The notes beneath the pieces were generated by a model. The model did not search any database and had not been told where the DNA came from. It was given only the letters and a program-made list of their open reading frames with translations. Made by a program: the position numbers and the translations under genes. A stretch of DNA of 57,905 bases. Source: Verrucomicrobiales bacterium. GTDB lineage: Bacteria; Verrucomicrobiota; Verrucomicrobiia; Verrucomicrobiales; V1-33. Below are positions 31,874 through 55,373 of the stretch, piece by piece (within the stretch, counting starts at the first letter, position 1; every line of letters starts with the position of its first letter). The DNA lies in assembly GCA_018003315.1 (NCBI GenBank), contig JAGNEJ010000023.1, forward strand, positions 1-57,905. Reading direction: 5' to 3'.

Positions 31874-33034
31874 TCAGCCAGGGTGCATCTGGCGCAGGCG
31901 TTTCGCGGCCTCGGCCATGCTGCGCAGTTTTTGGGCGGCCACGTCCTCGACGTTCACGCAGCGGTTGGCGAAGCAGCCGAATCCGCAGTCCGGATTAAGG
32001 AAAATCTGGTTTGGTTTCCAGAACTGCAGGGCTTCGCGGACCCGCTGCACGATTCCTTCCGGCGGTTCCGCTTCATCGGTGCGGGGGTTGACCACGCCGA
32101 GTCCGATTTCCCGGTCGCCGAGCGCCCGGCCCACCACGTCGAGTTCTCCCGCCCGCGGAGTGCAGTATTCCAGGACAAACTGCCGGCAGTGCATCTGCTG
32201 AAAGCACCCGACCAGCGGCTGGTAGTCTCCGGAGATCATGACATCCTCACGTTTTGACCAATTTCCCCGGCAGACGTGCAGCGCCAGCCGAAGCCGGTTT
32301 TCAAATCCGGCCGTCACCCGGTTGTAAAGCTCCGAGGCGTAGGAAAGTTCCGCACCCGCATCACGGCGGGTCGCCAAGGTCGCTCACATGAACGTTCGCC
32401 GCTTGGTGTCGCCGCTGTGGACGATCTCAGTGAGCACCGGCTCGTCAAATTGCACAAAGTCCGCCCCCGCAGCGCAGAGGTCCTCCAGTTCTTCGCGCAG
32501 GATGGAAATGACATCCTCCGCCATCACCGGCTTGTCCCCGTATGCCTGCCGGGAATGGGCCGTGACCCACATGGCGCGGGTCAGAAGATAGGGGCCGGGC
32601 AGGGTGACTTTCACCGGCTTGTCGGTCACGCTGCGAGTGAAGCGGAATTCATCGGCCGCCAACGGCTGGCGACGCTTGAGCCTGCCGACGCAGGTCGGGT
32701 TGCGAATTGCAAACGCCGGGGCATCCAGGGTGTTGAGCATTTCCTCAAAGGCCGCCTTGTCCTCGACGGTGTCGAGCATTTCCGCCAGGGACATGAGACG
32801 CGTGCCTTCCACCTTGTCGGTGATGAAGGAATAAAAGTTGTCGCGCCGCAGTTCGCCGTCCACGACGATGTCCACCCCGGCTTCTTCCTGGATGGCTACG
32901 CAGCGGCGCACCTCGCCGTCCGCCACCGCGTTGAATTCCTGATCGGTCATCCGGCCCAGACGCTTCTCCCGCAGGGCGGCCAGCAGTTGTTCGGAACGGG
33001 GCCAGGAGCCCACTTGGGTGACTTGGAAATTCAT
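31874..33034 (-). CDS. MetE-like cobalamin-independent methyltransferase with in-frame UGA (putative Sec217)
   Basis: One 386-residue frame if the TGA at 32386-32384 is read through. It is a TIM-barrel methyltransferase of the methionine synthase II/MetE C-terminal group. The start is MNFQVTQVGSWPRSEQLLAA at 33034, 23 bases after the preceding gene. Zinc-site motifs lie downstream of the UGA and are intact: H253 and C255 in LALHVCRGNW, E289 in FVLEYCTPRAGEL and C350 in FLNPDCGFGCF. The UGA follows TKRRTFM and precedes ATLATRRDAGAEL in the same frame, with no other stop. A 6-bp stem with a 6-base loop follows 12 bases after the UGA. The natural methyl acceptor is unknown; the family includes homocysteine and thiol methyltransferases. 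The alternative is a nonsense-mutated gene. Last gene of the 37966-31874 operon. Confidence 0.75.
32354..32371 (-). promoter_or_regulatory. Candidate SECIS hairpin in the MetE-like gene
   Basis: On the minus strand ACCCGC-CGTGAT-GCGGGT, a perfect 6-bp stem with a 6-base loop. The loop begins 18 bases after the UGA and its second base is G, which meets the bacterial SECIS consensus (loop 16-37 bases from the UGA, G in its first two positions). Confidence 0.55.
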
Positions 33035-33057
33035 TGTTGGGAAAAAGCGGTTGGGGA

Positions 33058-33777
33058 TTAGAGGATGGCGAGCCGTGCTTGGACTGCAGCGGCTTTTTTC
33101 AGAGTGCAAAAGATGGGAGCACGGGACTGAACTTCCGCGAAGACACGCCGCAGCGCCTCGCCTGACGCCGGGGAAGTGACAAACAGCGTCACTTCCACAC
33201 TGGAAATCGCAGCGTCTCCGGGTTCCACGCCCAGCATGGCGGATACATTGTGCAGTTGCGCCTTCGCAGTGGCTTCCATTTCATCGATGCCCAGAGACGC
33301 CTGCAGGCAGGCGGTGGCAAAGCCATTGACCAGTTCCGCCGCCAGTGATCCGAGCAGTCCTTCCAGGGCCGAGGGGTGTTCATCACGCTCTTCCAAACTG
33401 GCCGGCTGGCCAACGCTCCAGGAGAGGCTGCGCGCAAAGACCACGGCCTGCCGGCCGCCGACGGATTTCGCCCGCACCCGCCATTGGAACCGTTGTGCGG
33501 CGGCCAGATCGCTGCGCAACGCCTCTGACTGCGCGGCGGCATCGCCTCCGCGCCGCACAAAATGCCGCCAGCGGTTCGGTCCGTCTTCGGTGGTTAGCAG
33601 ATGCGTGTGTCCGGTCATGCGGCACCACGGGGGAAGCTCCCCTGCCACCGTCGGCTCCGAACTGCGGATCTCCAGCACCCCGCCCGTTGGCACCCGTTCC
33701 ATGTGCTGCCGGATCAACAGAATGAGCCCCGAACCGCAGTCCAGATCCCCTCCGTCAAACTGGTGTGCCACCTCCAT
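33058..33777 (-). CDS. TusA-like / OsmC-like fusion protein
   Basis: 239 residues, cytoplasmic. Residues ~1-75 are a TusA/SirA-like domain (MEVAHQFDGGDLDCGSGLIL ... ELPPWCRMTGH), with Cys14 in place of the usual CPxP motif. Residues ~95-239 are an OsmC-like domain (SALEGLLGSLAAELVNG). The two redox cysteines of classical OsmC are absent from their usual positions; the only nearby one is in RAPIFCTL. Start 33777 is chosen by homology of the first domain to the neighbouring TusA gene; frame upstream of it overlaps the dsrE gene. Lies 16 bases after dsrE and 23 before the MetE-like gene. Confidence 0.75.
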   Translation of the reverse strand: MEVAHQFDGGDLDCGSGLILLIRQHMERVPTGGVLEIRSSEPTVAGELPPWCRMTGHTHLLTTEDGPNRWRHFVRRGGDAAAQSEALRSDLAAAQRFQWRVRAKSVGGRQAVVFARSLSWSVGQPASLEERDEHPSALEGLLGSLAAELVNGFATACLQASLGIDEMEATAKAQLHNVSAMLGVEPGDAAISSVEVTLFVTSPASGEALRRVFAEVQSRAPIFCTLKKAAAVQARLAIL

Positions 33778-33793
33778 GGAAGCCGAACAAAGG

Positions 33794-34165
33794 CTAGTAA
33801 CTGACGTTGGGCGAACCATTGCCCAGCCATTCCACCAGCACCGCTCCGCCGGCGATCTCCACGCCTTCGAAAAGAGCATCCGCGGTGATGCCGCGCTTTT
33901 TGCAGCAGGGGGCGCAGGCCACCACCCGTCCGCCCGCGGCCATGAAATTCGTAATCAGTTCGGTCAGGGACTTGAAAGGCTCGCCTTCGTTGATCTGGGC
34001 GGCCTCCGACTTCACCGCGGCCCAGACGCCGTCGGTGCTCAGGAAGACCATGGTGTTCTTGCCGGAACCAAGCGCGGCGGTGGCAACGACGAAGGCGACG
34101 GTGGCCTTGTCCGGGTCCTGCTTGCAGTGATTGACGGTGACGCAGAAAGTGCTGGTGGTGTTCAT
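33794..34165 (-). CDS. DsrE-family protein
   Basis: 123 residues, cytoplasmic. The DsrE/TusD-like fold is indicated by DKATVAFVVATAALGSGKNT, then MVFLSTDGVWAAVK, and the conserved Cys segment RVVACAPCCKKRGI. DsrE/TusD proteins accept persulfide sulfur from TusA-like partners; here the TusA-like gene is directly upstream (6 bases) and a TusA-OsmC fusion directly downstream. That context supports a sulfur (or selenium) relay. Start at ATG 34165. Confidence 0.88.
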   Translation of the reverse strand: MNTTSTFCVTVNHCKQDPDKATVAFVVATAALGSGKNTMVFLSTDGVWAAVKSEAAQINEGEPFKSLTELITNFMAAGGRVVACAPCCKKRGITADALFEGVEIAGGAVLVEWLGNGSPNVSY

Positions 34166-34171
34166 GGTTGT

Positions 34172-34417
34172 TTATGGGTTGGTCTGCCCAGGTTCGGGCT
34201 TGTGGATTTGATAGTGCGGGTGACTGGCGGCAACGAGTTGAAACTGCATGAGCCGGCACCACGCCGGAATTTCCAGCGGAGCGCCGGGGTCGAGCGCCCG
34301 CACGGAGACGGTGGCGCCGGGAGGCTGCTGTTTCATGAAAAGCATGAGATTGAGCAGCAGCTCGCCACAGCCGGTTTCGCCGCCGTCAAAGGTGGTCTGG
34401 GGATCGCTGGTGGTCAT
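34172..34417 (-). CDS. TusA-like sulfurtransferase domain protein
   Basis: 81 residues. The pattern FDGGETGCGELLLNL ... ATVSVRALDPGAPLEIPAWC matches the TusA/SirA fold (DPGA and AWCR motifs), but the active segment is TGCGELL, not CPxP. Cys17 is the likely persulfide carrier. It sits 6 bases before dsrE. The preceding 145-base spacer holds a strong hairpin, so this gene may begin a sub-unit of the operon. Confidence 0.82.
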   Translation of the reverse strand: MTTSDPQTTFDGGETGCGELLLNLMLFMKQQPPGATVSVRALDPGAPLEIPAWCRLMQFQLVAASHPHYQIHKPEPGQTNP

Positions 34418-34480
34418 GGTCGGGGGGGGATGTGAAATCCATGGTCGGCTGGTGTGAGGCAGTCCAATGCGTTCAGGAGA

Positions 34481-34514
34481 CCGCCTGCCCGCACAAAAGC
34501 GTGCGGACAGGCGG
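34481..34514 (-). promoter_or_regulatory. Strong intercistronic hairpin
   Basis: CCGCCTGCCCGCAC (34481-34494) pairs with GTGCGGACAGGCGG (34501-34514) with one mismatch and a 6-base loop. It lies between the outer-membrane barrel and the TusA-like gene. No U-run follows on the minus strand, so an mRNA stabiliser, processing site or Rho-linked attenuator is more likely than a simple terminator. Confidence 0.55.
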
Positions 34515-34562
34515 CGGCAACCTCACACAAAAAGGGGATTCATTTCTTTCCTGGCCGAAATC

Positions 34563-35447
34563 CTACCAGCGGTAGGAGATGTCGAAAGTGAACCGGTCGT
34601 CGAAGAGTCCTTCCGGATCCGCCACGGCCTTCTGCCAGGCAACGCCGAAATCGATGTTCTCGGTCAATCGGGAGCGAAAGCCAATTCCAAGAGTAACCTG
34701 GGTGACGCCCTCGGAATTCGACGCCCCGAAGTTGATGGTGTCATAGCCTTCGGAATCAATGGGCAGGGCATTTCCCGCATCCAAAACCGTCCAGGAACTG
34801 GCGGTGATGAAGGGGATGAAATACTGGTTCACCCAGTAATCAGCCTGGAGATTGAACTGGAGGATGCTGCTGTTGGCGTCCGTGTCGATCGCCTGCTGGT
34901 ATCCCGCGTAACCGGTGAGGTGAAAGTCCCCCCACCCTTTTTCAGCGGAGGCAAAGAGATTGAGGATGCCATCGCCGGTCCCGTGGAAGATCGCCTTTTC
35001 TCCCAGTGGAATTTCGTAGGTGAAGCCGGGAGTGATGATGAACTGATTCTCCTCGCTGTCCACCAGGGCATATTTGAAGCCGGTGACCAGATTCGCCCAA
35101 CCGCTGGAGTCCGCGCCTTTGCCAGGATGGATCCAGAGGTAGCCGCCCTTGTTAGCGATCCACTGCAGGCGGTCGGTCAGGGCGATGCGCAGTTGCGCCC
35201 CGGCCAGGAACGCATCGCCCCCGCCGGTGATGAAGGCATCGTCGATGCGGTGGTAGATGAACGCCGGGCGGATTTCATTTCGGATCACCGGGTCTTCAAA
35301 ATAGAGCAGGTTCGAGACCGGTGAAATGGTCCGGCTCTTCCAGGAAACCTTCGGTTCCGGAGGAGCGATTTTTTTGCCAATGCTGGTGGCGCCGCCCAGG
35401 GCGAAGCCGGCAGAGGCAAGGAGCAGGAGAGCACTCGCTGTTTTCAT
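34563..35447 (-). CDS. Outer-membrane beta-barrel protein
   Basis: 294 residues with signal peptide MKTASALLLLASAGFALGGA, which sets the start at 35447. The rest alternates in barrel fashion (FIITPGFTYEIPLGEKAIF, YDTINFGASN, LGIGFRSRLTENIDFGVAW) and ends DDRFTFDISYRW with a terminal aromatic, the usual outer-membrane signal. It resembles the loosely defined phenol-degradation MetA-type/transporter barrels. In this operon it is the obvious uptake route for the compound that the other proteins process. Confidence 0.75.
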   Translation of the reverse strand: MKTASALLLLASAGFALGGATSIGKKIAPPEPKVSWKSRTISPVSNLLYFEDPVIRNEIRPAFIYHRIDDAFITGGGDAFLAGAQLRIALTDRLQWIANKGGYLWIHPGKGADSSGWANLVTGFKYALVDSEENQFIITPGFTYEIPLGEKAIFHGTGDGILNLFASAEKGWGDFHLTGYAGYQQAIDTDANSSILQFNLQADYWVNQYFIPFITASSWTVLDAGNALPIDSEGYDTINFGASNSEGVTQVTLGIGFRSRLTENIDFGVAWQKAVADPEGLFDDRFTFDISYRW

Positions 35448-35472
35448 GGTTTTGTCAGTGTGTTTGTGTTTG

Positions 35473-36297
35473 TCAGGGTGTTGCGGGTTTTGCGAAAAAT
35501 TCGAGTTTTGCACAGGCTTCGGTGAGGGCGGCAAATCCGCTGGTGCGGCCGGGCTCCCATTTTTTGAGCCCTTCCATGTCCATCATTTCGCGGTGTTTGG
35601 GGTCGTCGTAGCTCATGCGGTGCAGCACCTCGAGCCAGGCGGCCTCGCGCTCCGCGGGGAAATTCTCCTTCACGGTAAAGACGCAATGGTCATAGCGGTC
35701 GGTGGTGGCAAGGATGGCAAATTTTTCCGGATCGATGGTGCCGTCTTTGGTCCAGGCCAGCCAGTTCAGGTCGATGAGTGCGGAGGCGTCTGCCTCACCG
35801 CGTTTCAGGCAAAGAAGGGCCTCTTTTTCCCCGCCGATGTGGTCGCCATGCAGGCCCACCAACAGGTCAAAATGCTTTGCCGCGTAGTTTTTGCCGTCCT
35901 CCAAACCGTGGCGCAGCAGCAGCCCCTGGGGAATCAGCCGGGCCTGCGGGGAATCCTGCGCACCGAAGGCCACCGTTTTGCCGCGCAGGTCTTCGACGCT
36001 CTGAATGCCGCGATCTTTGACCACAATCAGGTGGGAAACCCGGTCGCGATCCGTGTCCCGCATGGCGATGGCCCGGCAGGTGCCCGCGCTGCGCCGCAAG
36101 GCGTCGAGCCAGGCGAGCGGGGAATTCCAGGCAACTTCAATTCGCCCGTCGAAGAGGGCTTCGTTTTGCAGGTCGTAATTCAGGAAGAGCCGCACGTCCA
36201 TGGGCACGCCATGGGATTCGAAGAACTCACGGATGATGTCCCAAATAACGGAAACTTTGGGATCGTAAAGAACCGCGCCGACAATGACAGGAGACAT
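35473..36297 (-). CDS. PhnD-like substrate-binding protein without a signal peptide
   Basis: 274 residues of the phosphonate/phosphate-binding (type II periplasmic binding) fold: EVAWNSPLAWLDALRRS, DRVSHLIVVKDRGIQSVEDL, RGKTVAFGAQDSPQARLIP and FAILATTDRYDHCVFTV. The most likely start, MSPVIVGAVLYDPKVSVIWD at 36297, begins directly in the fold with no signal peptide, and no ABC transporter permease or ATPase is nearby. It may be a cytoplasmic binding or enzymatic derivative. Spacing of 20 and 25 bases to its neighbours places it in the operon. Confidence 0.75.
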   Translation of the reverse strand: MSPVIVGAVLYDPKVSVIWDIIREFFESHGVPMDVRLFLNYDLQNEALFDGRIEVAWNSPLAWLDALRRSAGTCRAIAMRDTDRDRVSHLIVVKDRGIQSVEDLRGKTVAFGAQDSPQARLIPQGLLLRHGLEDGKNYAAKHFDLLVGLHGDHIGGEKEALLCLKRGEADASALIDLNWLAWTKDGTIDPEKFAILATTDRYDHCVFTVKENFPAEREAAWLEVLHRMSYDDPKHREMMDMEGLKKWEPGRTSGFAALTEACAKLEFFAKPATP

Positions 36298-36317
36298 GGG
36301 CAGTGAAGCGTGAATGG

Positions 36318-37469
36318 TTAGCCGAACAGCGGGAGGCCGACGAGCAGGCGACCGACGAATTCCCTGAGGTGATCCGTGGTGGGGGCCATGACGATGGCGG
36401 CGCGGGCATCGCGAAAAACCCGTTCCAGCCCCAGGTGCTTGCTGAATGCGGCCCCGCCGCAAGTCCGCATGGCAATGTCCGACACGCTTGCGGCCGTTTC
36501 AGCGCTGCTCGCTTTCACGGCCAGCAGGTGCAGGGTGCCATCCGCCGCGCCGGACTCCAGGCTGTCAAGGGTGGCGGCGAGATAGGCCCGGGCCTTGTCG
36601 GTTTCCAGCCGCATCAGGGCCAGGTTCGCGCGAAGGTTGGGCAGGTCGCTGAGTTTCGTGCCGGTGTGCTGGAATTCGGAAGAGGTGACATGCTGCCGTG
36701 CAGCCTGGAAGGCCGCTTCGGAGAGTCCGACACCGATCGCTCCCTGACAAAGCAAAAAGGCTGGCAGCACTTTGCCGAGCATGATGTCCACGCCTTTTCC
36801 GTCCTCGCCGATGAGGCGTTCGCTGAGGTTCAGCGCCACGTTGTCCAGTTGCATGGGGTGGCTTTCGTTGCCGCGCAGGCCCAAGCCATTCCATCCGCCG
36901 GAAACCGTCAGTCCCGCATCCCCCTTGCGCAGCAGAAAAAGGCTGACTCCGCTGCCATCTAGGGAACCCGCGCTGGCCACCACTCCGTCCGCGTGGATGG
37001 CGCTGGTCACCCAGCTTTTTTCCGCACTCAGGGTGGCAGCGCCCGGACCGGAGGCCACCGCTTTGGATACGGGCACCCAGAACTGGCTCCGGCTGCCGCG
37101 TTCGGAGAATGCCAGGGTGCTCAGATGCCGCCCGGCGGCGCAGTCCTTCAACAGGCTGGCGAATTTCACGGGGTCTGCGAGGAAGCAACTGGTGCTGGAC
37201 TGCTGCATCATGAACACCATGGCCGTGGAGGCGCAGCGCTGTGCCAGTTCATCCACCACCGCAGCCATCACCCGCAAGCCCTGGCCCAGACCGCCGAACT
37301 CTTTCGGCACCAGCAGGCCGTAGAGCCCGGCTTCGGCCAGCGCCTGCATGTTTTCCGTCGGAAAACGGCTGTTTTCGTCCACATCCGCCGCGTGGACGGT
37401 GAGGACATTTTCCGCAATGACGCGGGCTTTTTCCACGATGGCTTGCTGTTCGGAATTCAGGCGATACAC
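36318..37469 (-). CDS. Acyl-CoA dehydrogenase-like flavoprotein
   Basis: 383 residues with the acyl-CoA dehydrogenase fold: NMQALAEAGLYGLLVPKEFG (N-terminal helices), STLAFSERGSRSQFW and AEKSWVTSAIHADGVV (middle beta domain), and IAMRTCGGAAFSKHLGLERV (C-terminal FAD/dimer region). The usual catalytic Glu cannot be assigned. Related flavoproteins include monooxygenases for sulfur compounds (DszC/SfnB group), which would suit this operon, but that is inference. Start is a GTG at 37469; the reading frame upstream overlaps the OsmC gene. Confidence 0.82.
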   Translation of the reverse strand: MYRLNSEQQAIVEKARVIAENVLTVHAADVDENSRFPTENMQALAEAGLYGLLVPKEFGGLGQGLRVMAAVVDELAQRCASTAMVFMMQQSSTSCFLADPVKFASLLKDCAAGRHLSTLAFSERGSRSQFWVPVSKAVASGPGAATLSAEKSWVTSAIHADGVVASAGSLDGSGVSLFLLRKGDAGLTVSGGWNGLGLRGNESHPMQLDNVALNLSERLIGEDGKGVDIMLGKVLPAFLLCQGAIGVGLSEAAFQAARQHVTSSEFQHTGTKLSDLPNLRANLALMRLETDKARAYLAATLDSLESGAADGTLHLLAVKASSAETAASVSDIAMRTCGGAAFSKHLGLERVFRDARAAIVMAPTTDHLREFVGRLLVGLPLFG

Positions 37470-37507
37470 GGCTTTTGTTGCGTTAGGATTTTGGATTGAC
37501 GAAAATC

Positions 37508-37966
37508 TCAGGTGAACTGCAGAGAAAGCTCCACCCGTGCGGCGCGGCGCAGGGTGTGCAGCAGCGGGGCGCGCCGCTGGGCCTCCTCCCAGGCGGCCTG
37601 CAGATCGGCGCGGGAGGCGGGGCTGCCGACAAAGGCCTTGATGACAAAACAATCGTAATGCGGGACGCCTGCTGCACCCACCACGCCGAGGTGGCTCAGG
37701 GCACCCACCAACTCCGCCCGGAGGGTGGCCTCGGTTTCATCCACCTGGAGACGGCGGCGCGCCGCGATTTCCAGAAACAACCCCAGCACATCCGCTGCGA
37801 GGATTCCCAGGAGTTGCTCCGCTCCAGTGAGTGCGGGTTCCTGAATGTCAAAACTCCATCCCTTGCCGACGCAGGTTTTATGCGTCCTGGCGAACACCGC
37901 AAGCGGTGAACCCATTTTCCCGGAAGCACGGACGCTGACCAGCGCCCTTTGGAGCGAGTCAGCCAT
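37508..37966 (-). CDS. OsmC-like protein lacking the redox cysteines
   Basis: 152 residues. OsmC landmarks: PALTGAEQLLGILAADVLGL (helix that normally carries the first Cys, here Ala) and WEEAQRRAPLLHTLRRAARV (region that normally carries the second, here Ala-Pro). The only cysteines are in HKTCVGKGW and PHYDCFVIKAF. It is therefore unlikely to be a classic OsmC peroxidase. First gene of the operon under the ATG at 37966; the frame extends farther up but toward the GGCT gene. Confidence 0.75.
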   Translation of the reverse strand: MADSLQRALVSVRASGKMGSPLAVFARTHKTCVGKGWSFDIQEPALTGAEQLLGILAADVLGLFLEIAARRRLQVDETEATLRAELVGALSHLGVVGAAGVPHYDCFVIKAFVGSPASRADLQAAWEEAQRRAPLLHTLRRAARVELSLQFT

Positions 37967-38044
37967 GGTGTCGAATGAATGGGACCGGATGCACGAAGCG
38001 CGAATGAAAGCCTGCATCGGCAATCCTGTCAAGCAGCAGGCGCG

Positions 38045-38476
38045 TCATTTCCGACTGCCAATGGCTGCGAAATCGCCGCCTGGGATTTTCGGCAGGCCGG
38101 AAACCGGAAGGTTCCAGAGATAACACCAGCAAGGAACTTCGGAGCCGTCCTCCTCCCGCCGCACGGGAATGATCTGCCGAACATAGGCTTGCGGCTCACC
38201 GAATTCCTCGCCCACGCCTTCATAATGGTCGAGCAGCCGGAAGCAGAGCGATGGGTCGTGCAGTTGCAACAGCTCGCCCGTCACCCGCTGGGTTGAAGCG
38301 CTGTCCCACACCGCTCCTGGATAGGAAAAACCGTCCTGGGCGCTTCCGCCCAGCAGGAAGAGCGTCCCGGGAATCGAGGCCATGCCAAGAAACCGGGAAT
38401 GCTGGGCGAGGAAATCGGCGTGAGGATTGGCGAATCCTCGGCGCAGCGTGCCATAAACAAAAAGCAGGTCCGACAT
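38045..38476 (-). CDS. Gamma-glutamylcyclotransferase-like protein
   Basis: 143 residues of the GGCT/AIG2-like fold. The phosphate-loop signature is MSDLLFVYGTLRRGFANPHA at the N-terminus, and GVGEEFGEPQAYVRQIIPV carries the conserved acidic residue. Such enzymes release 5-oxoproline from gamma-glutamyl amines or glutathione. It lies 78 bases upstream of the OsmC-like gene on the same strand and could be the operon's first gene; a link to glutathione would fit a sulfur module but is not shown. Confidence 0.82.
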   Translation of the reverse strand: MSDLLFVYGTLRRGFANPHADFLAQHSRFLGMASIPGTLFLLGGSAQDGFSYPGAVWDSASTQRVTGELLQLHDPSLCFRLLDHYEGVGEEFGEPQAYVRQIIPVRREEDGSEVPCWCYLWNLPVSGLPKIPGGDFAAIGSRK

Positions 38477-38626
38477 GGGCGGAAACAGAATGAATCGCCG
38501 CAACTTTGGAGAATCCTCTCATCGCAGCAACCAAATCCCTCCCGCCATGACGGCAATGCGGAGCAAGTGAGCGCTTGCCGGATGCAGGCATTTGTGAATC
38601 AATCCGCCACGCCAAACCACCCGCGC

Positions 38627-39697
38627 ATGCACTCCCCCCCACCCTCACTCCTCCTCTGCTGCGCCGCTGCGCTGCTTTGCATTCCGACGGCGCTGCCAGC
38701 ACAGGATGTTCCGGCCTTCCGCATCGAGGCTGGAAAGGGCTTTGAAGCGAAGGATACGCTCCATTGCGGTCCGGAAGCCGCCGCGGATGCCGCCGCCTGT
38801 CTCGACGGCCTGAAATGGAGCTGCGGAACCTTTCCGGTGCAGACGGAGAAGGCCGAACTGGGCCGCGGTGACCTGCTGGTGCGTTTTCCCAGCCCCGTGC
38901 CCAGCGGTGATGCCGTCAATGACCGGGTGGCCATGGAGTGGTACGCCGTGCGCAATGGACGCGGCGAAATGAAGAAGGCCCCGGCACTCGTCATCGTCCA
39001 TGAATCCGGCCGAGGCATGATCGCCGGTCGGCTGTTTGCCCGGGGCCTGCATCTGTGCGGCTTCCACACCTTTCTGGTGCACCTTCCAGGCTACGGGGCG
39101 CGGACGTGCGGCCTGACGGATGACATCAAGCGCATCTTTCCGGCCCTGCGGCAGTCGGTGGCGGATGTGCGTCGAGCCAGGGATGCCGTGGCGGCGCTTC
39201 CCTGCGTCGATGCCTCGCTCGTGGGCCTTCAGGGGACCAGCCTCGGCGGATTCGTGGTCGCCACCGTCAGCGGACTGGACCGCGGCTATCAAAAGGCCTT
39301 CATTCTGCTTGCCGGCGGCCAGCTTTCCGACGTGCTGCTCAAAGGTCAGAAGGACGCGGCGGAGATGCGCCGCCGCCTGACGGAAGCGGGAGTTTCCGAG
39401 GAGCAAATCTGTGCGCTTTCCCGCGGCGTCGAGCCGCTGCGCCTCGCTCACCGTGTGGATGCTGCGGGCACCTGGCTCTTCAGCGGAAGGTTCGACGAAG
39501 TGGTGCCCCCGCCCTGCTCCCAAGCGTTCGCCCAGGCCGCACGGCTCGACACGACGCACCATCTGGTGCTGCCCGCAGGCCATTACACCGCCGCGGTCTT
39601 CATGCCCGCGGTGCTGCAGCAGATCAGCGATCACATGCTGGGCCGTCCGCCGAAACTGCAGATCGTGCCGCCGGCCACTGCGCCTGCGAACCCGTGA
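38627..39697 (+). CDS. Secreted alpha/beta hydrolase
   Basis: 356 residues. The signal peptide starts MHSPPPSLLLCCAAALLCIP; hence start 38627. The hydrolase core has ALVIVHESGRGMIAGRLFAR (oxyanion strand), the nucleophile elbow LQGTSLGGFVVATV (Ser), WLFSGRFDEVVPPP (Asp) and LPAGHYTAAVF (His), giving a complete triad. It resembles Verrucomicrobial/planctomycetal acetyl-xylan-esterase-like or dienelactone hydrolase-like proteins. The substrate is unknown. It diverges from the GGCT gene. Confidence 0.82.
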   Translation: MHSPPPSLLLCCAAALLCIPTALPAQDVPAFRIEAGKGFEAKDTLHCGPEAAADAAACLDGLKWSCGTFPVQTEKAELGRGDLLVRFPSPVPSGDAVNDRVAMEWYAVRNGRGEMKKAPALVIVHESGRGMIAGRLFARGLHLCGFHTFLVHLPGYGARTCGLTDDIKRIFPALRQSVADVRRARDAVAALPCVDASLVGLQGTSLGGFVVATVSGLDRGYQKAFILLAGGQLSDVLLKGQKDAAEMRRRLTEAGVSEEQICALSRGVEPLRLAHRVDAAGTWLFSGRFDEVVPPPCSQAFAQAARLDTTHHLVLPAGHYTAAVFMPAVLQQISDHMLGRPPKLQIVPPATAPANP

Positions 39698-39724
39698 GGT
39701 GCCGTTGCGTTCGCCGCTTTCTGC

Positions 39725-40432
39725 TCAGCCCGCATCCTGCCGCGTGTCCGAAGGTGCATTCATCGCGGTTTCCACGCTGCACAGGTGCACGGCGTGGCGG
39801 ATGAGTTCGGCGGGACTGCGCAGGCCGAGTTTTTTCCGGATGTTCAGGCTGTGCGTTTCCACCGTTTTGGCGCTGAGGCCGAGACTGACGGCCACTTCCT
39901 GATTCGTCTGGCCAATGCCGAAGCAGCGCAGCACTTCAAATTCGCGGTCGCTGAGACCGGCCAGGGGGTTGGCGACAGACTGGCGTCCGCTGGATTCTTC
40001 GAGGAGCTGGGTGGTGGTTTCGGCGCTGAAGGCCATGCGTCCCTGAAGGATGGTGCGCAGGGCTTTGATCAACGATTCCGCACCGGAATTCTTGTGACAG
40101 TAGCCGCGGGCGCCGGCCCGCAGGGCCCGTCCGGCGTAGAGGGATTCATCATGCACGGAAAAAATGAGCACCGGCAGCGTCGGCCAGCGGGCTTTGATGT
40201 CCTTGGTCAGTTCCAGCCCGTCGCGACCAGGCATGCCGATGTCAGTGATGACGGCGTCCGGGCAGAGGGCGGCGATGGCATCGCGGGCCTCGCGGGTCTG
40301 GCTGCTCTGACCGCAGATTTCCATGTCCGCAGTCTGGTTGATCCAGAGCGCAATGCCGTCGCGAACGACGGCGTGATCATCCACGAGCAGGATGCGTTTT
40401 TTGGGCGGAATCGAGCCGGCAGGCGATGTCAT
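39725..40432 (-). CDS. NarL/LuxR-family response regulator
   Basis: 235 residues. The receiver domain (KRILLVDDHAVVRDGIALW) has phospho-acceptor Asp in AVITDIGMPGRDGLEL and Lys in GYCHKNSG. The LuxR-type DNA-binding domain is LSDREFEVLRCFGIGQTNQE, then SAKTVETHSLNIRKKLGL. The start is 40432 or the upstream ATG at 40450. It is transcribed away from the histidine kinase gene; a palindrome between them is the likely operator. It is probably phosphorylated by the kinase at 40497. Confidence 0.92.
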   Translation of the reverse strand: MTSPAGSIPPKKRILLVDDHAVVRDGIALWINQTADMEICGQSSQTREARDAIAALCPDAVITDIGMPGRDGLELTKDIKARWPTLPVLIFSVHDESLYAGRALRAGARGYCHKNSGAESLIKALRTILQGRMAFSAETTTQLLEESSGRQSVANPLAGLSDREFEVLRCFGIGQTNQEVAVSLGLSAKTVETHSLNIRKKLGLRSPAELIRHAVHLCSVETAMNAPSDTRQDAG

Positions 40433-40467
40433 CGGAACACAGGATGGCACGGAATGACCGAAGGGTA

Positions 40468-47019: not shown

Positions 47020-47122
47020 GACGGGGAACATTATTCAAAAAGACTCGGAGTGCAACAGGTTTCTTATATTTCTTCTGGCATATTGTTTGACATGCCCGCC
47101 TGCCCGTTCCTGCATGGTGCGG

Positions 47123-48232: not shown

Positions 48233-48289
48233 GGTGGCAAACATAGCAGTGGCGCCAGCCTGCACCATGCGGCAAACGTCCGCAAACAC

Positions 48290-49093
48290 ATGGAGCTGAC
48301 CGACGCCCACCTCCACCTGCAGGCACCGGAACTCGCCCCGCACCTGGCGGAAATCTGGCCGGAGATGGCGCGGCTGGGCATTTCCCGCGCCGTGGTCAAT
48401 GGCACCTGCGAGGCCGACTGGAAATCCGTGGCTGCGCTGGCACGGGAACAGGCGGCGGTCATTCCCTCCTTCGGTCTGCACCCGTGGCATGTCCGGAAAC
48501 GCACGGACGCCTGGCTCGCCACTCTGGAGGAGTGGTTGCAGGTTTTTCCCGCTGCGGGAGTCGGCGAAGTGGGACTGGACCGGTGGGTCAAAGACAACGA
48601 CCCGACGGAACAACTGCCGGTCTTCCAGCAGCAACTGGAACTGGCCGCACGGCGCAACCGCCCGGTGACGATTCACTGCATCCAGGCCTGGGGTCTGCTG
48701 CTGGAGGTGCTGCGGGCGATGCCGCCGCCCCGCGGTTTTCTGCTTCACGCCTACGGTGGCTCATGGGAGATGGCGCAGGCATTTGCCGGACTCGGAGCGT
48801 GGTTCAGCTTTTCCCCCCATTTTCTGCATGAACGCAAGGCGGCGCAGCGCGACGTGTTCCGCCGCCTGCCCATCGACCGCCTGCTGCTGGAAACCGATGC
48901 CCCGGCCTTGTGGCCGCCTCCGGAACGCAACCGTCACCCTCTGACAGATCCCGCCACGGGCACCACCATCAACCATCCGGCGAATCTGGAAGTGACCCTC
49001 GCCGGCCTGGCCGAGCTGCGGGGCCTGTCCGCGTCGGATCTGGCCGCGGTGACGGAACAGAATTTCAACCGCTGGTGGGATGCCCACCGTTGA
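48290..49093 (+). CDS. TatD-family metal-dependent hydrolase
   Basis: 267 residues, amidohydrolase-like TIM barrel for phosphodiester cleavage. Metal motifs: MELTDAHLHLQ (HxH), GVGEVGLDRW (Glu), PVTIHCIQAW (His), FLLHAYGGSWEM (His) and LLLETDAPAL (Asp). The start ATG 48290 is the family's usual one. The much longer open frame upstream lies over the propeller gene's reverse strand and is not real. Confidence 0.92.
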   Translation: MELTDAHLHLQAPELAPHLAEIWPEMARLGISRAVVNGTCEADWKSVAALAREQAAVIPSFGLHPWHVRKRTDAWLATLEEWLQVFPAAGVGEVGLDRWVKDNDPTEQLPVFQQQLELAARRNRPVTIHCIQAWGLLLEVLRAMPPPRGFLLHAYGGSWEMAQAFAGLGAWFSFSPHFLHERKAAQRDVFRRLPIDRLLLETDAPALWPPPERNRHPLTDPATGTTINHPANLEVTLAGLAELRGLSASDLAAVTEQNFNRWWDAHR

Positions 49094-49192
49094 CCCGGCT
49101 TCGCCTGCTTTGTTCCAGACAACGCCCCAGATACCCTGCGGCAACCGGCTGGCTCGCCAACTGGATCTTGAAAAATCCGCTTTTTCGGTGAA

Positions 49193-51010
49193 ATGAAATG
49201 CCTGCGTTCCTCAACGAAATCCCGCCCCCGCCTCCGCTCCATGAACCCGTCACCAACCAGCCAGCATTCGTTTCTTCCGCGTTCCAGCACCGGCTGGGCC
49301 TGCTTCATGGCTGGAATCCTGGCCCTGACCATCCTGTCCGGGCAAAGCCACGGCCAAACCAACCTTTACTGGCGCTTGGAGGCCGCCAACAAGAATTGGA
49401 GCGATGCCAACAATTGGTGGAATGGTTCGGGAACCCAGGCCCCTGCCGGCAGTGAAATCCTGCACTTCGGCAACACCATCCAGACGGAGATGACCAACGA
49501 CCTCACCGGCAGCGCCGCAAACCGGTATCGCATCAATTTTGATTCCGGCAGTGGAGAACGCACCATCAGCGGCAGCACGGAGAACACGTTTTTTGATTTC
49601 AGCGGCAGTGCCCCCGCCATTTACAACAATTCGGGAGCCAACCAAACCATTGGATTCAAAATCATCAACGGCAACTCCAACGGCAGCAACCGGCTGGAAT
49701 TGAATGCCAACAGTGGAAAGCTGATTTTCAACAGCAACAGCAACATCAGCGCCAGCGGCGGTTCTCGCACGGTGGTGGCGATGGGGTCATCAGACATCGA
49801 CATGAGCGGCACCGTGATGCAGGAAACCGGCGCCACGCTCAACCTCAAAAAAGAAGGCTCCGGAACCCTGACCTTGTCTGGAAACAACTCCTTTACCGGC
49901 GGAGTCGCCTTCACGGATGGACGCATCAACTTCAACCACTCCTCCGCCGCTGGAACGGGAACCATTGAGGTTAGCGACACCGCGGACGAGTTTTCCAGTT
50001 CGTCTGGCACCGTCTCCCTCGCTAACAGCATCACCTTGAACACCACGTCGGGAACCACCAAGTTTTACTCCACCGGCACCCGACTGGAACTCTCAGGGAC
50101 CATTTCCGGCAGTGGAAAAATCCTGCGCGACAACACGGGAGCGGGTGACTTGCGGCTTTCCGGAGACAATTCCTTTTCAGGCGGCGTCACCGTGACCAGC
50201 CGCGGCATCCGCCTGGCACACAAAAATGCCCTGGGAACAGGCACCTTCAGCATTGGTGGTGGTTCCACCCCCGGCACGGCCATCACGATCACCGCTGACA
50301 CAGCACTGGAGGGCGGCAACGCCATTCCGAATGCCGTCTCATGGAACCAGGATTTCACCCTGGCAGCCGTCAACAGTCTGGAATTTAGCGGAGCGACCAC
50401 GCTGAGCGGAGACAGGACGGCCACCGTAAACAGCGGGAAGACCCTGACATTTTCTGGCGGCATCAGCGGCTCCGGGGCATCGCTCATCAAGGCGGGCCTG
50501 GGAACCTTGAAGTTGTCCGCCAGCAATTCCTACACCGGTGCCACCAGCATCACCGGAGGCACCCTGCTCCTGGGTGCCAGCAATGTGCTGCCGGATGCAT
50601 CGAACATCACCCTCAGTGGCGCAACGCTGGCCACAGGAGGCTACTCTGACACCGTCGGAACGCTGACCCAGACCGGAACCTCCACCATTGACCTGGGCAG
50701 CGGAAGCTCCACGCTCACCTTCGCTGACAGCCATGCCCTGGGGTGGTCCGGCACGCTCAACATCTGGAACTGGAGCGGAGGAAGCGACCACCTCTTTTTC
50801 GGCTCCGACAGCAGCGGCCTCACCAGCGGGCAGGCTTCCCTGGTGCAGTTCTATTCGGGAACCACTGGCGCCACATTTCTGGGCACCGGACAAATGCTAG
50901 GCAGCGGCGAACTGGTCCCCGTCCCAGAGCCCGCCGCCGCCCTGACCGCAGCCCTGCTGGCCCTGCCGGCATTCCGCCGGGAACGCGGGAAATGCCGCCG
51001 GGTTTCGTAA
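49193..51010 (+). CDS. Autotransporter-associated beta-strand repeat protein with PEP-CTERM-like tail
   Basis: 605 residues. Signal region: WACFMAGILALTILSGQSHG after a basic N-terminus (Met17, 49241, may be the start). The body consists of repeated LTLSGNNSFTGGVAF, LRLSGDNSFSGGVTV and LKLSASNSYTGATSITGGTL units, the autotransporter-associated beta-helix repeat. The C-terminus VPVPEPAAALTAALLALPAF followed by RRERGK is a PEP-CTERM-type sorting signal, so the protein is exported and probably cut by an exosortase/archaeosortase-type enzyme not in this window. Function unknown; surface or exopolysaccharide-associated. Confidence 0.88.
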   Translation: MKCLRSSTKSRPRLRSMNPSPTSQHSFLPRSSTGWACFMAGILALTILSGQSHGQTNLYWRLEAANKNWSDANNWWNGSGTQAPAGSEILHFGNTIQTEMTNDLTGSAANRYRINFDSGSGERTISGSTENTFFDFSGSAPAIYNNSGANQTIGFKIINGNSNGSNRLELNANSGKLIFNSNSNISASGGSRTVVAMGSSDIDMSGTVMQETGATLNLKKEGSGTLTLSGNNSFTGGVAFTDGRINFNHSSAAGTGTIEVSDTADEFSSSSGTVSLANSITLNTTSGTTKFYSTGTRLELSGTISGSGKILRDNTGAGDLRLSGDNSFSGGVTVTSRGIRLAHKNALGTGTFSIGGGSTPGTAITITADTALEGGNAIPNAVSWNQDFTLAAVNSLEFSGATTLSGDRTATVNSGKTLTFSGGISGSGASLIKAGLGTLKLSASNSYTGATSITGGTLLLGASNVLPDASNITLSGATLATGGYSDTVGTLTQTGTSTIDLGSGSSTLTFADSHALGWSGTLNIWNWSGGSDHLFFGSDSSGLTSGQASLVQFYSGTTGATFLGTGQMLGSGELVPVPEPAAALTAALLALPAFRRERGKCRRVS

Positions 51011-51275
51011 CGTGCGGTGAATTCCGCGCCCGTCCGGTCCTTGCCGGATCGGTGCCAGGCGATCATCCCGTCGATCACCGGCAAGAAGCCGCAGTGACAA
51101 CCGCCGCCCGACTTCCTCGCGGGCATTCGCAAAGGGCATGCACCCATTTGTCAGCGAAGGCCGGGCCGCAGCCAAAACGGCAGCGGCGCGACGCTCGAAG
51201 CACCGCGAAAAACCATCCCGCCGCCCGCGGAACAAAAAGCGGTACAAATCGATCTTCTCGGGCGCGGGATGCACC
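51011..51275 (-). pseudogene. Fragment of a TOTE-type primase/helicase gene
   Basis: Read on the minus strand, three frames together restore the N-terminal module of the TOTE conflict-system primase: PEKIDLYRFLFRGRRDGFSR in one frame, then CGPAFADKWVHALCECPR in the second, then GGGCHCGFLPVIDGMIAW in the third. In intact homologues these are one stretch, with the Cys pairs forming a zinc knuckle before the primase core. The fragment is cut off at the end of the preceding gene near 51010. At least two frameshifts make it non-functional. It sits directly beside the restriction-modification genes. Confidence 0.65.
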
Positions 51276-51285
51276 GGGAATCGGG

Positions 51286-52179
51286 TCACACCGCCAAGTC
51301 CAATGGAAACTCGGAGATGTCCCGGATCCGCTTGCCTGAAATCATGGTGTCGAGCATGTCTTTCGCGTCGGAATGGTTCAGTTTGTCAATGGCCTCAATC
51401 AGCTCGGGGAGGGCAATGTGATATAGACAATCGATGTCGCCGGTTCCAAGCGCCAGGGAAGCGAGACGGCTTGGAAGGCACTCGGCGGTAACAATCACGA
51501 TATGCGGCGAGCGTCCTTTCCGGTTCCTGATCAAATTCAAGGCTTCGGAACGCGCATTCTGAGAGCGGTCGCTGCGCAGGGTGAATTTGCAGGAAATGCA
51601 GGCATGCAAGATCGGCCGCTCGGTCGTTGACTGTCGCAGCGGGGTGCGAACGGCAAGACCGTCGTGCAGGAACATTCCCTGAGCATTGATGACCAAATCC
51701 GATTCCGGATGCCGTGTGACAATCACATCGGGGCTGACGGCGTAGTCATTCCCAAGCACTGCCCTGAGTTCGCGATGATCCTGGCAAAACCGGGTCAGAT
51801 CGTCCAAATGCGAGTACTGCTCGCAGGAGGCAACCGCCTGTTCGTTCCGGTTTGTGATTTGTTGGATATTCCACTTGCCCGGCCGGAGATGGCCCAAGTG
51901 AAGAAAGGTGGATCGCAAGTAGTGCTCAATGTGTTTTTCAAATCGATCTCCCAAGCTTTGCGCGGCCAACTTCTTTTGCCGCCGTCTCGCGCCGGTCACC
52001 CGTTTTGCGACAAAATTCGAGATCTCCAAGCTGGCAGTATTGCTGTAATCCGCATTGCTTGCCGCAATGATCCGTTTCGATTTGGCACCTTTGCCAACGG
52101 AGTAGGCATCAAAGGTGAGGACATCTCCAGCCAATCGTTCGAAGAGTTCGGAACGTGCGGTCTCAAGCGTAGCGGGCAT
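51286..52179 (-). CDS. NgoMIV-type restriction endonuclease
   Basis: 297 residues, close to the 286 of NgoMIV. The active site ACISCKFTLRSDRSQ has the Ser-x-Lys and the Asp six residues after the Lys that NgoMIV uses (SxK...D), with the upstream metal Asp in AVSPDVIVTRH. The segment ARSEALNLIRNRKGRSPHIV and LASLALGTGDIDCLYHIALP are family-diagnostic. It should cut GCCGGC, the NgoMIV/NaeI site, which is inferred. The start 52179 overlaps the methyltransferase stop by 17 bases, so the methylase is made first. Confidence 0.9.
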   Translation of the reverse strand: MPATLETARSELFERLAGDVLTFDAYSVGKGAKSKRIIAASNADYSNTASLEISNFVAKRVTGARRRQKKLAAQSLGDRFEKHIEHYLRSTFLHLGHLRPGKWNIQQITNRNEQAVASCEQYSHLDDLTRFCQDHRELRAVLGNDYAVSPDVIVTRHPESDLVINAQGMFLHDGLAVRTPLRQSTTERPILHACISCKFTLRSDRSQNARSEALNLIRNRKGRSPHIVIVTAECLPSRLASLALGTGDIDCLYHIALPELIEAIDKLNHSDAKDMLDTMISGKRIRDISEFPLDLAV

Positions 52180-53152
52180 TGGGCTTCGATTCAATGGCTT
52201 CTCTGATTCTCGTGGCAACAGCCTTGGCTACTGGCGGCGGAAACGCGTTGCCCACCTGACGATAGGCAGCGGTCTTGCCGCCGGTGAACTTCCACTCGGC
52301 AGGAAAACCTTGGATCAGTGCCGCCATGGGAACGGTGAGTCTTGGAATTCCCATGAAACCCCTTGGCGGGGCCTCGTCGGCGAGCGACTTCGCATTCACC
52401 CCGAGGCTTGCCCATGCGCGTTTGGCTCGAGTGGGGCCGAGATCCGCCCCGCCGTGTTTTTTGGAACCGCCCACGAGGGTCGGTGCGATTTCGTCGGCAT
52501 TTTTCGCCCATTCGAATGCGCCTTCCCAGCCATTCGCGGCCATCATCTCGACCAAGGTGGCACCGACCGACTTGGGTGTCTTTCCATCGGTCAACTGAGT
52601 GGGCGCGTGGAAGTTTCCGGCGAGGTCTTCACGGATCGCGACAATCACCACCCGCGGACGCAACTGGGGAACACCGAAGTCTGACGCGTGCAGCAGATGC
52701 CAACTGGATTCGTAGCCAAGTGCCTTGAAGCGTTTCTTGAGTTTTATCCGGTAGTCGGTGAAAACGGCATCGAGCAACCCTCGGACGTTCTCAAGCAGCA
52801 CGGCTTTGGGTTTGCACTCGGAAACCAGCCGGAGGGCTTCAGGAAACAGATCGCGCACGTCGTCAGCCCCGAGCTGTTTTCCTGCCACCGAGAATGGCGG
52901 GCAGGGAACGCCACCGGCCAACAGGTCCACGCCTTCGAATTTCAGGGCGCTGAATTCCCGGACATCGGCCTCAATCACATTCCAACCTGGCCGATTGAGC
53001 CGAAGTGTGGCGCAAGCATGGCGATCGACCTCGACATGGGCGAGCGCTTCAAACCCAGCGGATTCCAGGCCAAGCGCCTGGCCGCCGGCACCCGCACAAA
53101 TTTCAATGCAGGTGGGTCCTGAGCAGCTTGAAGATGATCGCGGTTCGGACAT
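52163..53152 (-). CDS. DNA cytosine-5 methyltransferase, partner of the NgoMIV-type enzyme
   Basis: 329 residues. C5-methylase motifs in order: I CIEICAGAGGQALGLESAG, IV GGVPCPPFSVAGKQLG (catalytic Cys), VI AVLLENVRGLL, VIII QLRPRVVIVAI, and X YRQVGNAFPPPVAKAVA. Start ATG 53152. Being upstream of and overlapping the nuclease gene, it protects the host DNA and is presumably specific for the same GCCGGC site. GCCGGC does occur in the window, so the genome is not purged of it. Confidence 0.93.
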   Translation of the reverse strand: MSEPRSSSSCSGPTCIEICAGAGGQALGLESAGFEALAHVEVDRHACATLRLNRPGWNVIEADVREFSALKFEGVDLLAGGVPCPPFSVAGKQLGADDVRDLFPEALRLVSECKPKAVLLENVRGLLDAVFTDYRIKLKKRFKALGYESSWHLLHASDFGVPQLRPRVVIVAIREDLAGNFHAPTQLTDGKTPKSVGATLVEMMAANGWEGAFEWAKNADEIAPTLVGGSKKHGGADLGPTRAKRAWASLGVNAKSLADEAPPRGFMGIPRLTVPMAALIQGFPAEWKFTGGKTAAYRQVGNAFPPPVAKAVATRIREAIESKPNARYA

Positions 53153-53192
53153 GGCTTCAACTGAACAGCAACGCGAGCGGACGGGCAACGAG

Positions 53193-53232
53193 GGAAGTTG
53201 AGCGGCGATCGGACAGCGAGGCTGCAACTTCC
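53193..53232. repeat. Inverted repeat upstream of the methylase gene
   Basis: GGAAGTTG (53193-53200) and CAACTTCC (53225-53232) are perfect inverted copies 24 bases apart, about 40 bases before the methylase start. It could be an operator of the restriction-modification genes; no controller gene is seen. Confidence 0.4.
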
Positions 53233-53361
53233 GCTTCTCCATTCGACTGCGAATTTCATGGTTTTGTCCGCGCCCGCGAAGATCACGCACCACGAGGCCC
53301 TGACGGTGATGGTGTGCTTGGCTGGTGCTGCGTTGCTGTCTGCATCGCGGGACGAGCCGCC

Positions 53362-54423
53362 TCAATCATCCCGCTCGCGGCATCGCGGACGGTCATCGGG
53401 CTCTTGTCCGATCACCGCGGCGGTCCGGGCCATGAAGGCGAGATTTTCGGGTGCAGTATCCGGAGTGATTTCGCAGCCGCCGGAAATGATGCAGCGCCCA
53501 TCGGCTTGGCGGAAATCCCGCAGGATCGTCTCCCCCAAGGTTTCCGGCCTGCCGTTTTGGATCACAGACACCGGATCGGCCTTGCCGGAAAAAACCTGCT
53601 TCGGGGAGAGTCGGCCGAGGAAGGGCTCGAACGAAGGCACGAGATGGTCCACGTCGATGATGTCCGCGCCGGTGGCGATCATGTCCGGCAGTATGGCCGT
53701 GGTGTTGCCGCAAATGTGCAGTTTGGCCTTGGCACCGAGCGCATGGATGTGGTCCACGAGCGCCTTTTCCCGCTGGAATGCAAACTCGCGAAAGAGCCGC
53801 GGTCCGATTTGCGAGGCGAATGCGTCGCCGATGCCGATGCAGTCTGCTCCCGCCTTGATCTGGAGTTCCGCAAACGTCATCGCCGCCTCAGTAATCATGT
53901 CCATCACCCTGGCGACCTTTTCCGGTTCGTCCATCAGGTCGTAGGCAGCTTCGGTTAGTCCGCGCAGGTCGGCGTATTCGGCAACCGGACCCTCCACCCA
54001 GCCGACGACAAAAAAGCGGTCTCCCGCCAGGCGACGAAACGTGGCGATTTCTTCGAGTCGGTTGGCAGTGCGCCGGTGGGCGGTGACGTTGTAGGGCTTG
54101 AGGGCAAGCACTTCGGCGATGTCCGCGAAGTGTCCCTGGTCGAGCGGCAGACCGTCCTCGGGATACTCCACCTTGATGCCGAACGCCTCGGCTTCGGCAT
54201 AGGGATCGGACATGACCGTGACCCAGTCAGCACCAAAGTCCGCGGCGCACTGGATCATGGCGCGGCATTTGTCAGCAGGATTCAGGCAGAAATCGCGGTA
54301 GTTCACGCCGGCATGGCGGGCGGCGAAACGCATGACGATGGGGTGAAACGGCGGACGGTCCACGGGCCGCCCCTCCAGAAAGTTCAAGGTGCGTTCCCGT
54401 CCTGTCAGGGAGAGTGTGCTCAT
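53362..54423 (-). CDS. URO-D/MtaA-like methyltransferase
   Basis: 353 residues of the uroporphyrinogen decarboxylase superfamily. The zinc motif AKLHICGNTTAILPDM (His-x-Cys) and a later Cys in CIISGGCEITPDTAPENL are those of MtaA/MtbA/CmuA-like corrinoid or thiol methyltransferases, and not of heme-pathway HemE. ERTLNFLEGRPVDRPPFHP at the N-terminus is also typical. No corrinoid protein or partner methyltransferase is adjacent. It diverges from the UGA-containing thioredoxin gene. Confidence 0.85.
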   Translation of the reverse strand: MSTLSLTGRERTLNFLEGRPVDRPPFHPIVMRFAARHAGVNYRDFCLNPADKCRAMIQCAADFGADWVTVMSDPYAEAEAFGIKVEYPEDGLPLDQGHFADIAEVLALKPYNVTAHRRTANRLEEIATFRRLAGDRFFVVGWVEGPVAEYADLRGLTEAAYDLMDEPEKVARVMDMITEAAMTFAELQIKAGADCIGIGDAFASQIGPRLFREFAFQREKALVDHIHALGAKAKLHICGNTTAILPDMIATGADIIDVDHLVPSFEPFLGRLSPKQVFSGKADPVSVIQNGRPETLGETILRDFRQADGRCIISGGCEITPDTAPENLAFMARTAAVIGQEPDDRPRCRERDD

Positions 54424-54569
54424 TGGCTTTGGCTGCTGGCATTTGCTGGAGCTGCGCGGGCGGACCGCCTTGCGGACGCGCAGAAATCTTCGCTTTGGAC
54501 CGGCAGCTTCGAGCGGTTCCGGTTCGTGGCAAGTTCAACTTCCCGTGCCGCGGTGTGCAGGATTCCTGA

Positions 54570-54597
54570 TTGCGCAGCCGCCAAAAGCGGCTATCCT
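54570..54597 (+). promoter_or_regulatory. Possible promoter of the UGA-containing thioredoxin gene
   Basis: TTGCGC (54570-54575) and TATCCT (54592-54597), 16 bases apart, 30 bases before the ATG. The spacer is part of a dyad, AGCCGC-CAAAA-GCGGCT (54576-54592), that could bind a regulator. Confidence 0.35.
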
Positions 54598-54626
54598 CCT
54601 CGCCAGTCAAACCGCATCCACTTGCC

Positions 54627-55373
54627 ATGAAAAAATCCCTGTGCTTTCTGCTAGCCTCTTGTCTGGGCATCAGCGCCTCCCTGGCCGAGGTCCGGAAATG
54701 GACCAGCGCCGATGATCCAACCAAGACATTTGATGGCGAATTCGTCGAAGCCAAGGGGGACATGGTCACCATCAAAAGGAAGAGCGGCAAACCCCAGACG
54801 TTCCCTGCAGCCAAGCTTTCCAAGGAAGACCAGGACTACATCGCCCAGCAGGCAGCCAGCAAAGCCCAGGAAGCCGCCACGAAAGCGGCTGCCGACAAAG
54901 TCAAGGAATCGCCCATGGCCAAAGCGCTGGAGAAAAAGCTGCAGAAACTCGACGGCAAAAAATTTGTGAAGTTCGACCTGCTGGCGGAAAAGGCGCCTGA
55001 ATACTACCTGCTCTACTGGGGAGCCTCGTGGTGAGGCCCCTGCAATGCTACAGCGCCACAGTTGGTGGCGCTTTACGATAACAAACTGGCCGCCGCGAAG
55101 AACGTCGAACTCGTCCACATCAGTTGTGACCAGGACGAGGCCGGCATGAAAAAATTCATGGGCGGGCACAATCTCAAATGCCCGGTGATTGATGCCGCCA
55201 CGGCTGACAAAATCAAAGTGCTGAAGGAGCTATCTCCACGCGGAATTCCAAACTACAAGCTGGTGGATGCTTCCGGCAAACTCCTGGCAGAGGGGTCGGA
55301 TGCGAAGCACAAGGCTGAGGAATTTGCCGCTGCTGCGGCGGCGGGAGGCGGGGATGCCGAGGCCAAAAATTAA
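54627..55373 (+). CDS. SHD1-thioredoxin-like protein with in-frame UGA (putative Sec136)
   Basis: 248 residues if the TGA at 55032-55034 is read through. The signal peptide is MKKSLCFLLASCLGISASLA, so the protein is exported. Residues ~21-72 form an SHD1-type domain (VRKWTSADDPTKTFDGEF), followed by a charged Ala/Lys linker. The thioredoxin-like domain runs from ~120: YYLLYWGASW, the UGA, then GPCNATAPQLVALYDNKLA in the same frame. The UGA thus replaces the first Cys of a WCGPC redox motif. The fold continues with VELVHISCDQDE and the cis-Pro segment LSPRGIPNYKLVDASGKLL. A perfect 8-bp hairpin follows 17 bases after the UGA. A disulfide/selenosulfide oxidoreductase of the periplasm is the natural reading; the alternative is a nonsense-mutated gene. 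Confidence 0.85.
55052..55072 (+). promoter_or_regulatory. Candidate SECIS hairpin in the thioredoxin-like gene
   Basis: AGCGCCAC-AGTTG-GTGGCGCT, an 8-bp perfect stem, with two more pairs after a one-base mismatch. The loop begins 26 bases after the UGA and its second base is G, matching the bacterial SECIS consensus. Confidence 0.7.

Follow-up and report, generated by a model that had tools for sequence, protein, structure and literature searches.

We wished to understand whether two UGA codons, each interrupting an otherwise open reading frame, are read as selenocysteine (Sec) and what sort of proteins they belong to. Both are in a 57,905-nucleotide stretch of DNA, which we call the window, from the forward strand of contig JAGNEJ010000023.1 of a Verrucomicrobiales bacterium (GCA_018003315.1). 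The source genome, from the phylum Verrucomicrobiota, is a 5.09-Mb draft in 155 contigs. The original prediction, made from the window alone, described two frames broken by UGA and by no other stop. Both frames are real; they lie on opposite strands and each has a single in-frame TGA. Gene A (31874..33034, minus strand) starts with ATG at 33034, ends at an ordinary TGA stop (31876-31874) and encodes a MetE/MesD-like protein of 386 amino acids. The sole interruption, TGA at 32386-32384, specifies the predicted Sec217 in the context RTFM-U-ATLATRR. Gene B (54627..55373, plus strand) starts with ATG at 54627, ends with TAA at 55371-55373 and encodes a thioredoxin/TlpA-like protein. Here, the sole interruption is at 55032..55034 (U135 of the translated stretch, in the context ASW-U-GPC).

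If the codons encode Sec, they should recur in homologues. A scan of genome contigs provided 80 relatives of gene A. At codon 217, TGA occurs in 71, TGT in six and TGC in three; all nine forms lacking TGA thus have cysteine. No relative has another in-frame stop before the C-terminal end. Residues past the UGA are invariant among the homologues and the downstream part is, as had been proposed, intact. The lineages with TGA carry the labels of about 12 phyla. Forty TGA-bearing genomes were tested for SelA: it is over the cut-off in 36 and fragmentary in three more, and none was found in the last, a 1.6-Mb assembly. Hence, for gene A, UGA aligns with cysteine in homologues and the UGA form recurs in organisms that have the Sec pathway. 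For gene B, we examined 30 loci, namely the window's own gene and its best matches in related genomes. At the codon in question, 14 have TGA and 16 cysteine.

The host genome also has the means to insert Sec. We detected a tRNA-Sec with the UCA anticodon, the tRNA by which the original prediction could be checked, at 52.2 bits (cut-off 47), and ARAGORN likewise calls it tRNA-SeC. SelB scores 287 bits against a cut-off of 242, and SelA and SelD are present. A search of the window itself found no tRNA, and the decoding machinery sits elsewhere in the genome, as anticipated. In SelD (L017, G000:C124:17903-18823, plus strand), the enzyme that donates selenium, the motif GCAGUASK contains an in-frame UGA, so that this enzyme, too, is a selenoprotein. 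A further selenoprotein is encoded by a thioredoxin/TlpA-like gene (L141, G000:C142:144062-144337, minus strand), whose in-frame UGA falls within WGRSUGPC and whose hairpin, with an AGTTG loop, resembles the one in gene B. The genome therefore has at least four selenoprotein genes (A, B, SelD and L141), in line with the expectation that more would be found. One other candidate was rejected: in a MetH-like homocysteine domain (C122:21843-22691), flagged for a single TGA, that codon is the ordinary stop ending the match.

A hairpin of the type expected for a bacterial selenocysteine insertion sequence (bSECIS) had been predicted after each UGA, and was found in both cases. Distances are counted from the first UGA base. 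In gene A, the hairpin ACCCGC-CGTGAT-GCGGGT (32354..32371, minus strand) is 15-32 nucleotides downstream; in gene B, the hairpin AGCGCCAC-AGTTG-GTGGCGCT (55052..55072, plus strand) is 20-40 nucleotides downstream. Each would direct Sec insertion at the preceding UGA. Across 72 Sec-encoding versions of gene A, a mean of 5.69 of the six stem pairs is kept, compared to 3.64 +/- 0.12 under a synonymous-recoding null, in which codons are redrawn from each gene's own usage and genes are taken as independent, ignoring relatedness, so that the spread is too small. In 54 of these 72 genes, 94.4% of alignment cells are paired, compared to 29-49% in slid controls. Among the nine cysteine forms, eight keep between zero and three of the six pairs, and one keeps five. 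For gene B, all 14 TGA forms retain five to eight of eight pairs, nearly all with the AGTTG loop. One pair is T-A in 13 of them and G-C in the window gene, with both sides exchanged.

Several observations weigh against the hairpins. Folded as single sequences and compared with shuffles, they are unremarkable (z of -1.06 for gene A and -0.59 for gene B). Hence, the hairpins alone are weak evidence, and it is the comparison between genes that carries the case. The alignment-shuffle control for gene A was also weak (41/500), because the stem hardly varies. Three Sec forms of gene A keep just two of six pairs at the hairpin columns. Conversely, two of the nine cysteine forms, which are two of the three from Verrucomicrobiales, still fold strongly in this stretch. 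Taken together, the recoding null, the slid controls and the contrast between Sec and cysteine forms argue that the gene A hairpin is kept by selection.

Other explanations for the UGA codons fare poorly. UGA normally ends translation in bacteria, and with an assembly in 155 contigs the codons might be sequencing errors or recent nonsense mutations, both genes being pseudogenes. We give this next to no credence. The original prediction had argued against it. That TGA recurs at the equivalent codon, in independent genomes for gene A and at 14 of 30 loci for gene B, already refutes it; the single interruption of each frame and the invariant residues past it point the same way. Equally negligible is a genome-wide reassignment of UGA to a sense amino acid, of the table 4 or table 25 type. 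Frames would likewise stay open across UGA in that case. However, UGA is the normal stop of SelA, SelB, gene A itself and two of its neighbours, encoding a substrate-binding protein (SBP)-like and an OsmC-like protein. This excludes a global code change, as had been foreseen. In addition, the tRNA-Trp and tRNA-Cys genes found have the usual anticodons, CCA and GCA, and the UGA-reading tRNA found is tRNA-Sec. A subtler possibility is that UGA is read by other means, either near-cognate read-through or a tRNA-Cys with a UCA anticodon, so that the residue is cysteine or tryptophan. Cysteine tRNAs of this sort, with a UCA anticodon, are known from some bacteria, and homologues of both genes have cysteine at the site. 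Even so, we consider this very improbable, given the full Sec pathway, the co-occurrence of SelA with the TGA form and the position of both hairpins at bSECIS distance. We conclude that the two UGA codons are almost certainly decoded as Sec by the SelA, SelB, SelD and tRNA-Sec of this genome, as judged from comparison of sequences.

What, then, is the product of gene A? It matches the cobalamin-independent methionine synthase catalytic domain (PF01717) at 108 bits, where the cut-off is 21. MetE (TIGR01371) matches at 97.5 bits, where the cut-off is 929.95, and with 386 residues the protein is not a two-domain MetE. No NCBIfam model reached its cut-off, and all scores to methionine synthase models were far below. 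The predicted structure is a MetE-type TIM (triosephosphate isomerase) barrel, with a mean predicted local distance difference test (pLDDT) score of 89.9. Compared with MetE and MesD structures, the model gives Z scores of 28-38, which places the protein in the PF01717 superfamily. The nearest solved fold is MesD (PDB 3rpd; Z of 38.4, 24% identity), and T. maritima MetE gives 36.5. Alignment to MetE predicts that H253, C255, E289 and C350 bind zinc and that S10, E61 and D197 contact homocysteine. None of these residues varies among 56 diverse family members, in which position 217 is always Sec or cysteine. Hence, gene A very probably encodes a MetE-superfamily enzyme of the zinc-thiol type.

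The location of Sec217 is of particular interest. Strands are predicted at 193-197, 249-253, 285-288 and 344-348, and D197, H253, E289 and C350 each end one of these or follow it closely. With active-site residues at strand ends, we infer that loop 198-225, which carries Sec217 between D197 and H253, is on the catalytic face of the modelled barrel. Set against this, model confidence is lowest in the loop, with blocks at 58-76 pLDDT. According to the alignment, most of the Sec217-bearing insertion is absent from MetE. With MetE, the protein shares the fold, the H-x-C, E and C zinc ligands, and the Ser, Glu and Asp homocysteine contacts; it lacks the N-terminal folate-binding half. Like MesD, it is a stand-alone MetE-type barrel of similar length with conserved zinc and homocysteine residues (PMC7857596; PDB 3rpd). 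MesD has a family-specific insertion, with the substrate-contacting Tyr226, that is without counterpart in other core synthases (Price et al. 2021, PMC7857596). Gene A differs in placing Sec or cysteine in the insertion and in its association with a TusA-DsrE-OsmC operon. Furthermore, carriers of gene A include sulfate reducers, while MesD is reported from strict aerobes. A search for MesX (PF08908) in 47 carrier genomes gave no match, but control genomes gave none either.

Gene A is the last gene of a conserved operon, TusA-DsrE-TusA/OsmC-MetE(Sec), as identified from gene order and sequence similarity. In the window, all genes of the operon are on the minus strand. They encode a TusA-like protein of 81 amino acids (34172..34417), a DsrE-family sulfur-relay protein of 123 amino acids (33794..34165) and a TusA/OsmC fusion of 239 amino acids (33058..33777), whose placement upstream of gene A is conserved. 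DsrE and TusA/OsmC are encoded upstream of gene A, on the same strand, at 69 loci. TGA forms account for 66 of these and, in them, the genes are nearly always directly adjacent. The small TusA was recognised at 50 loci. Cysteines of the relay proteins are near-invariant (C17 and C54 in TusA, C84 and C87 in DsrE, C14 and C52 in TusA/OsmC). The operon partners resemble the TusA/DsrE relay and the OsmC-related (seleno)protein NF041052, all well below NCBIfam cut-offs. However, it is the MetE-like partner that has Sec here, rather than OsmC.

A mechanism can be proposed on this basis. The zinc of the gene A protein would activate a small thiol, such as homocysteine or similar. Sec217 would then serve as a second nucleophile or redox partner; TusA, DsrE and TusA/OsmC, as persulfide carriers, would be its counterparts in the exchange of an alkyl group or of sulfane sulfur. 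Judging by gene order and conserved residues, the chances that the protein works together with the relay are about even. The specific exchange chemistry is a more tentative suggestion. Similarly, we put forward only as a possibility, and somewhat against the odds, that gene A and its operon represent an undescribed selenium-dependent pathway in many phyla, where small thiols and protein persulfides on TusA, DsrE and TusA/OsmC trade alkyl groups or sulfane sulfur through a MetE-like zinc selenoenzyme, with Sec favoured alongside the relay and replaceable by cysteine once the relay is lost.

The evolutionary history of gene A bears on these ideas. In a tree built with position 217 masked, Sec forms make up one group, apart from a cysteine group of Poribacteria and Chloroflexota. 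Nested within Verrucomicrobiales is a single reversal from Sec to cysteine (support 99/93). DsrE and TusA/OsmC are absent genome-wide from the four genomes of this reversal, and are present in Sec-bearing relatives; SelA is retained in three of the four. Loss of the relay while SelA was mostly kept is a natural experiment on the purpose of Sec. Other observations temper the link between Sec and the relay. The reversal is one event, and proximity in an operon is no proof of a joint reaction. Moreover, in one Chloroflexota-labelled genome (L098), gene A has cysteine and all of TusA-DsrE-TusA/OsmC is present, so the link is not strict. Gene A is rare in its own phylum, with high scores in two of 288 genomes, which is consistent with horizontal spread. 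Among the carriers available in culture is Desulfopila aestuarii DSM 18488 (L067). Separately, a very divergent Sec member (L097, 2914-4062; end branch 1.04), from a metagenome-assembled genome labelled Betaproteobacteria, has the same hairpin and no operon upstream.

Two other functions for gene A deserve consideration. The protein could be the cell's methionine synthase, with Sec incidental. Its zinc and homocysteine sites are complete for the MetE superfamily, and its nearest fold, MesD, is consistent with this. However, the host genome encodes a full MetH, and MetH is over the cut-off in 35 of 47 genomes tested; gene A is thus unlikely to be a housekeeping methionine synthase. Its rarity within the phylum, an operon of sulfur carriers rather than one-carbon genes, and scores far under cut-off for every methionine synthase NCBIfam model also count against this role, which we regard as unlikely overall. 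Alternatively, gene A might act on selenium, for example in selenol methylation or demethylation, with TusA and DsrE carrying selenium rather than sulfur. A link to selenium metabolism is known for TusA-DsrE type proteins, YedF among them. In addition, the SBP-like neighbour matches a putative selenate transporter model at 63 bits, which is below the cut-off. This is less likely still: L098 pairs a complete operon with cysteine in gene A, and nothing was found that points directly to a selenium substrate.

Prokaryotic selenoproteins are mostly thioredoxin-fold redox proteins. If the proposal is true, a zinc methyltransferase barrel with Sec at its catalytic face brings the transfer of thiol alkyl groups or sulfur within the reach of selenium chemistry. 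A further implication is that mis-annotation is widespread, because standard gene calling would cut relatives of gene A at codon 217. What the original prediction had not seen is that gene A represents a widely distributed group of selenoproteins, accompanied by a sulfur-relay operon of their own. Among the 119 families in a 2026 inventory of prokaryotic selenoproteins, no entry is PF01717 or MetE-like (PMC13188914, Table 1). We found no report of a MetE-like or PF01717 selenoprotein in a literature search to which subscription journals were mostly outside, so that priority is not proven. Hence, gene A apparently founds, or joins, an unlisted selenoprotein family. That this statement and Sec decoding both hold seems highly likely.

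By comparison, neither gene B nor the decoding system is of a new kind. Gene B is over the cut-off for PF13905, PF00578 and PF00085, has the UxxC motif and occurs in Sec and cysteine versions. It is a UxxC thioredoxin-like oxidoreductase of the type already listed for bacteria, where thioredoxin, peroxiredoxin-like and TlpA/thiol-disulfide isomerase-like selenoproteins are known (PMC13188914, Table 1). With these it shares WUGPC in a TlpA-like domain and a downstream hairpin. It adds an SHD1-like N-terminal region, for which the match is weak; otherwise it is ordinary.

Further genes precede the operon in the window, also on the minus strand. They encode an OsmC-like protein (37508..38032), identified by analysis of neighbours, at the start of an extended cluster; an acyl-CoA-dehydrogenase-like flavoprotein of the Rv1679/FadE16 type (36318..37652; NF049984 at 389.8 bits, below cut-off, and SfnB-like too); and the SBP-like protein, cytosolic and of the Rv1680 type (35473..36462; NF049985, below cut-off). 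These genes are common to close verrucomicrobial relatives. The extended cluster with the SBP-like gene occurs in verrucomicrobial relatives and in one genome labelled as a planctomycete. This region (35473-38032) resembles the mycobacterial Rv1679-Rv1681 cluster (NF049984, NF049985, NF049973), in particular Rv1679 (FadE16) and Rv1680. The TusA parts match the start of the Rv1681 model weakly. The window differs in that its matches are below cut-offs and no radical S-adenosylmethionine domain was recognised. We found no paper devoted to the Rv1679-Rv1681 cluster in a literature search; the two clusters may represent a shared sulfur pathway. Elsewhere, the window contains a full-length bacterial RNase P class A RNA (6757-7190, plus strand; 143.8 bits) and, at its edge, a group II intron domain match (56-127, plus strand; 47 bits).

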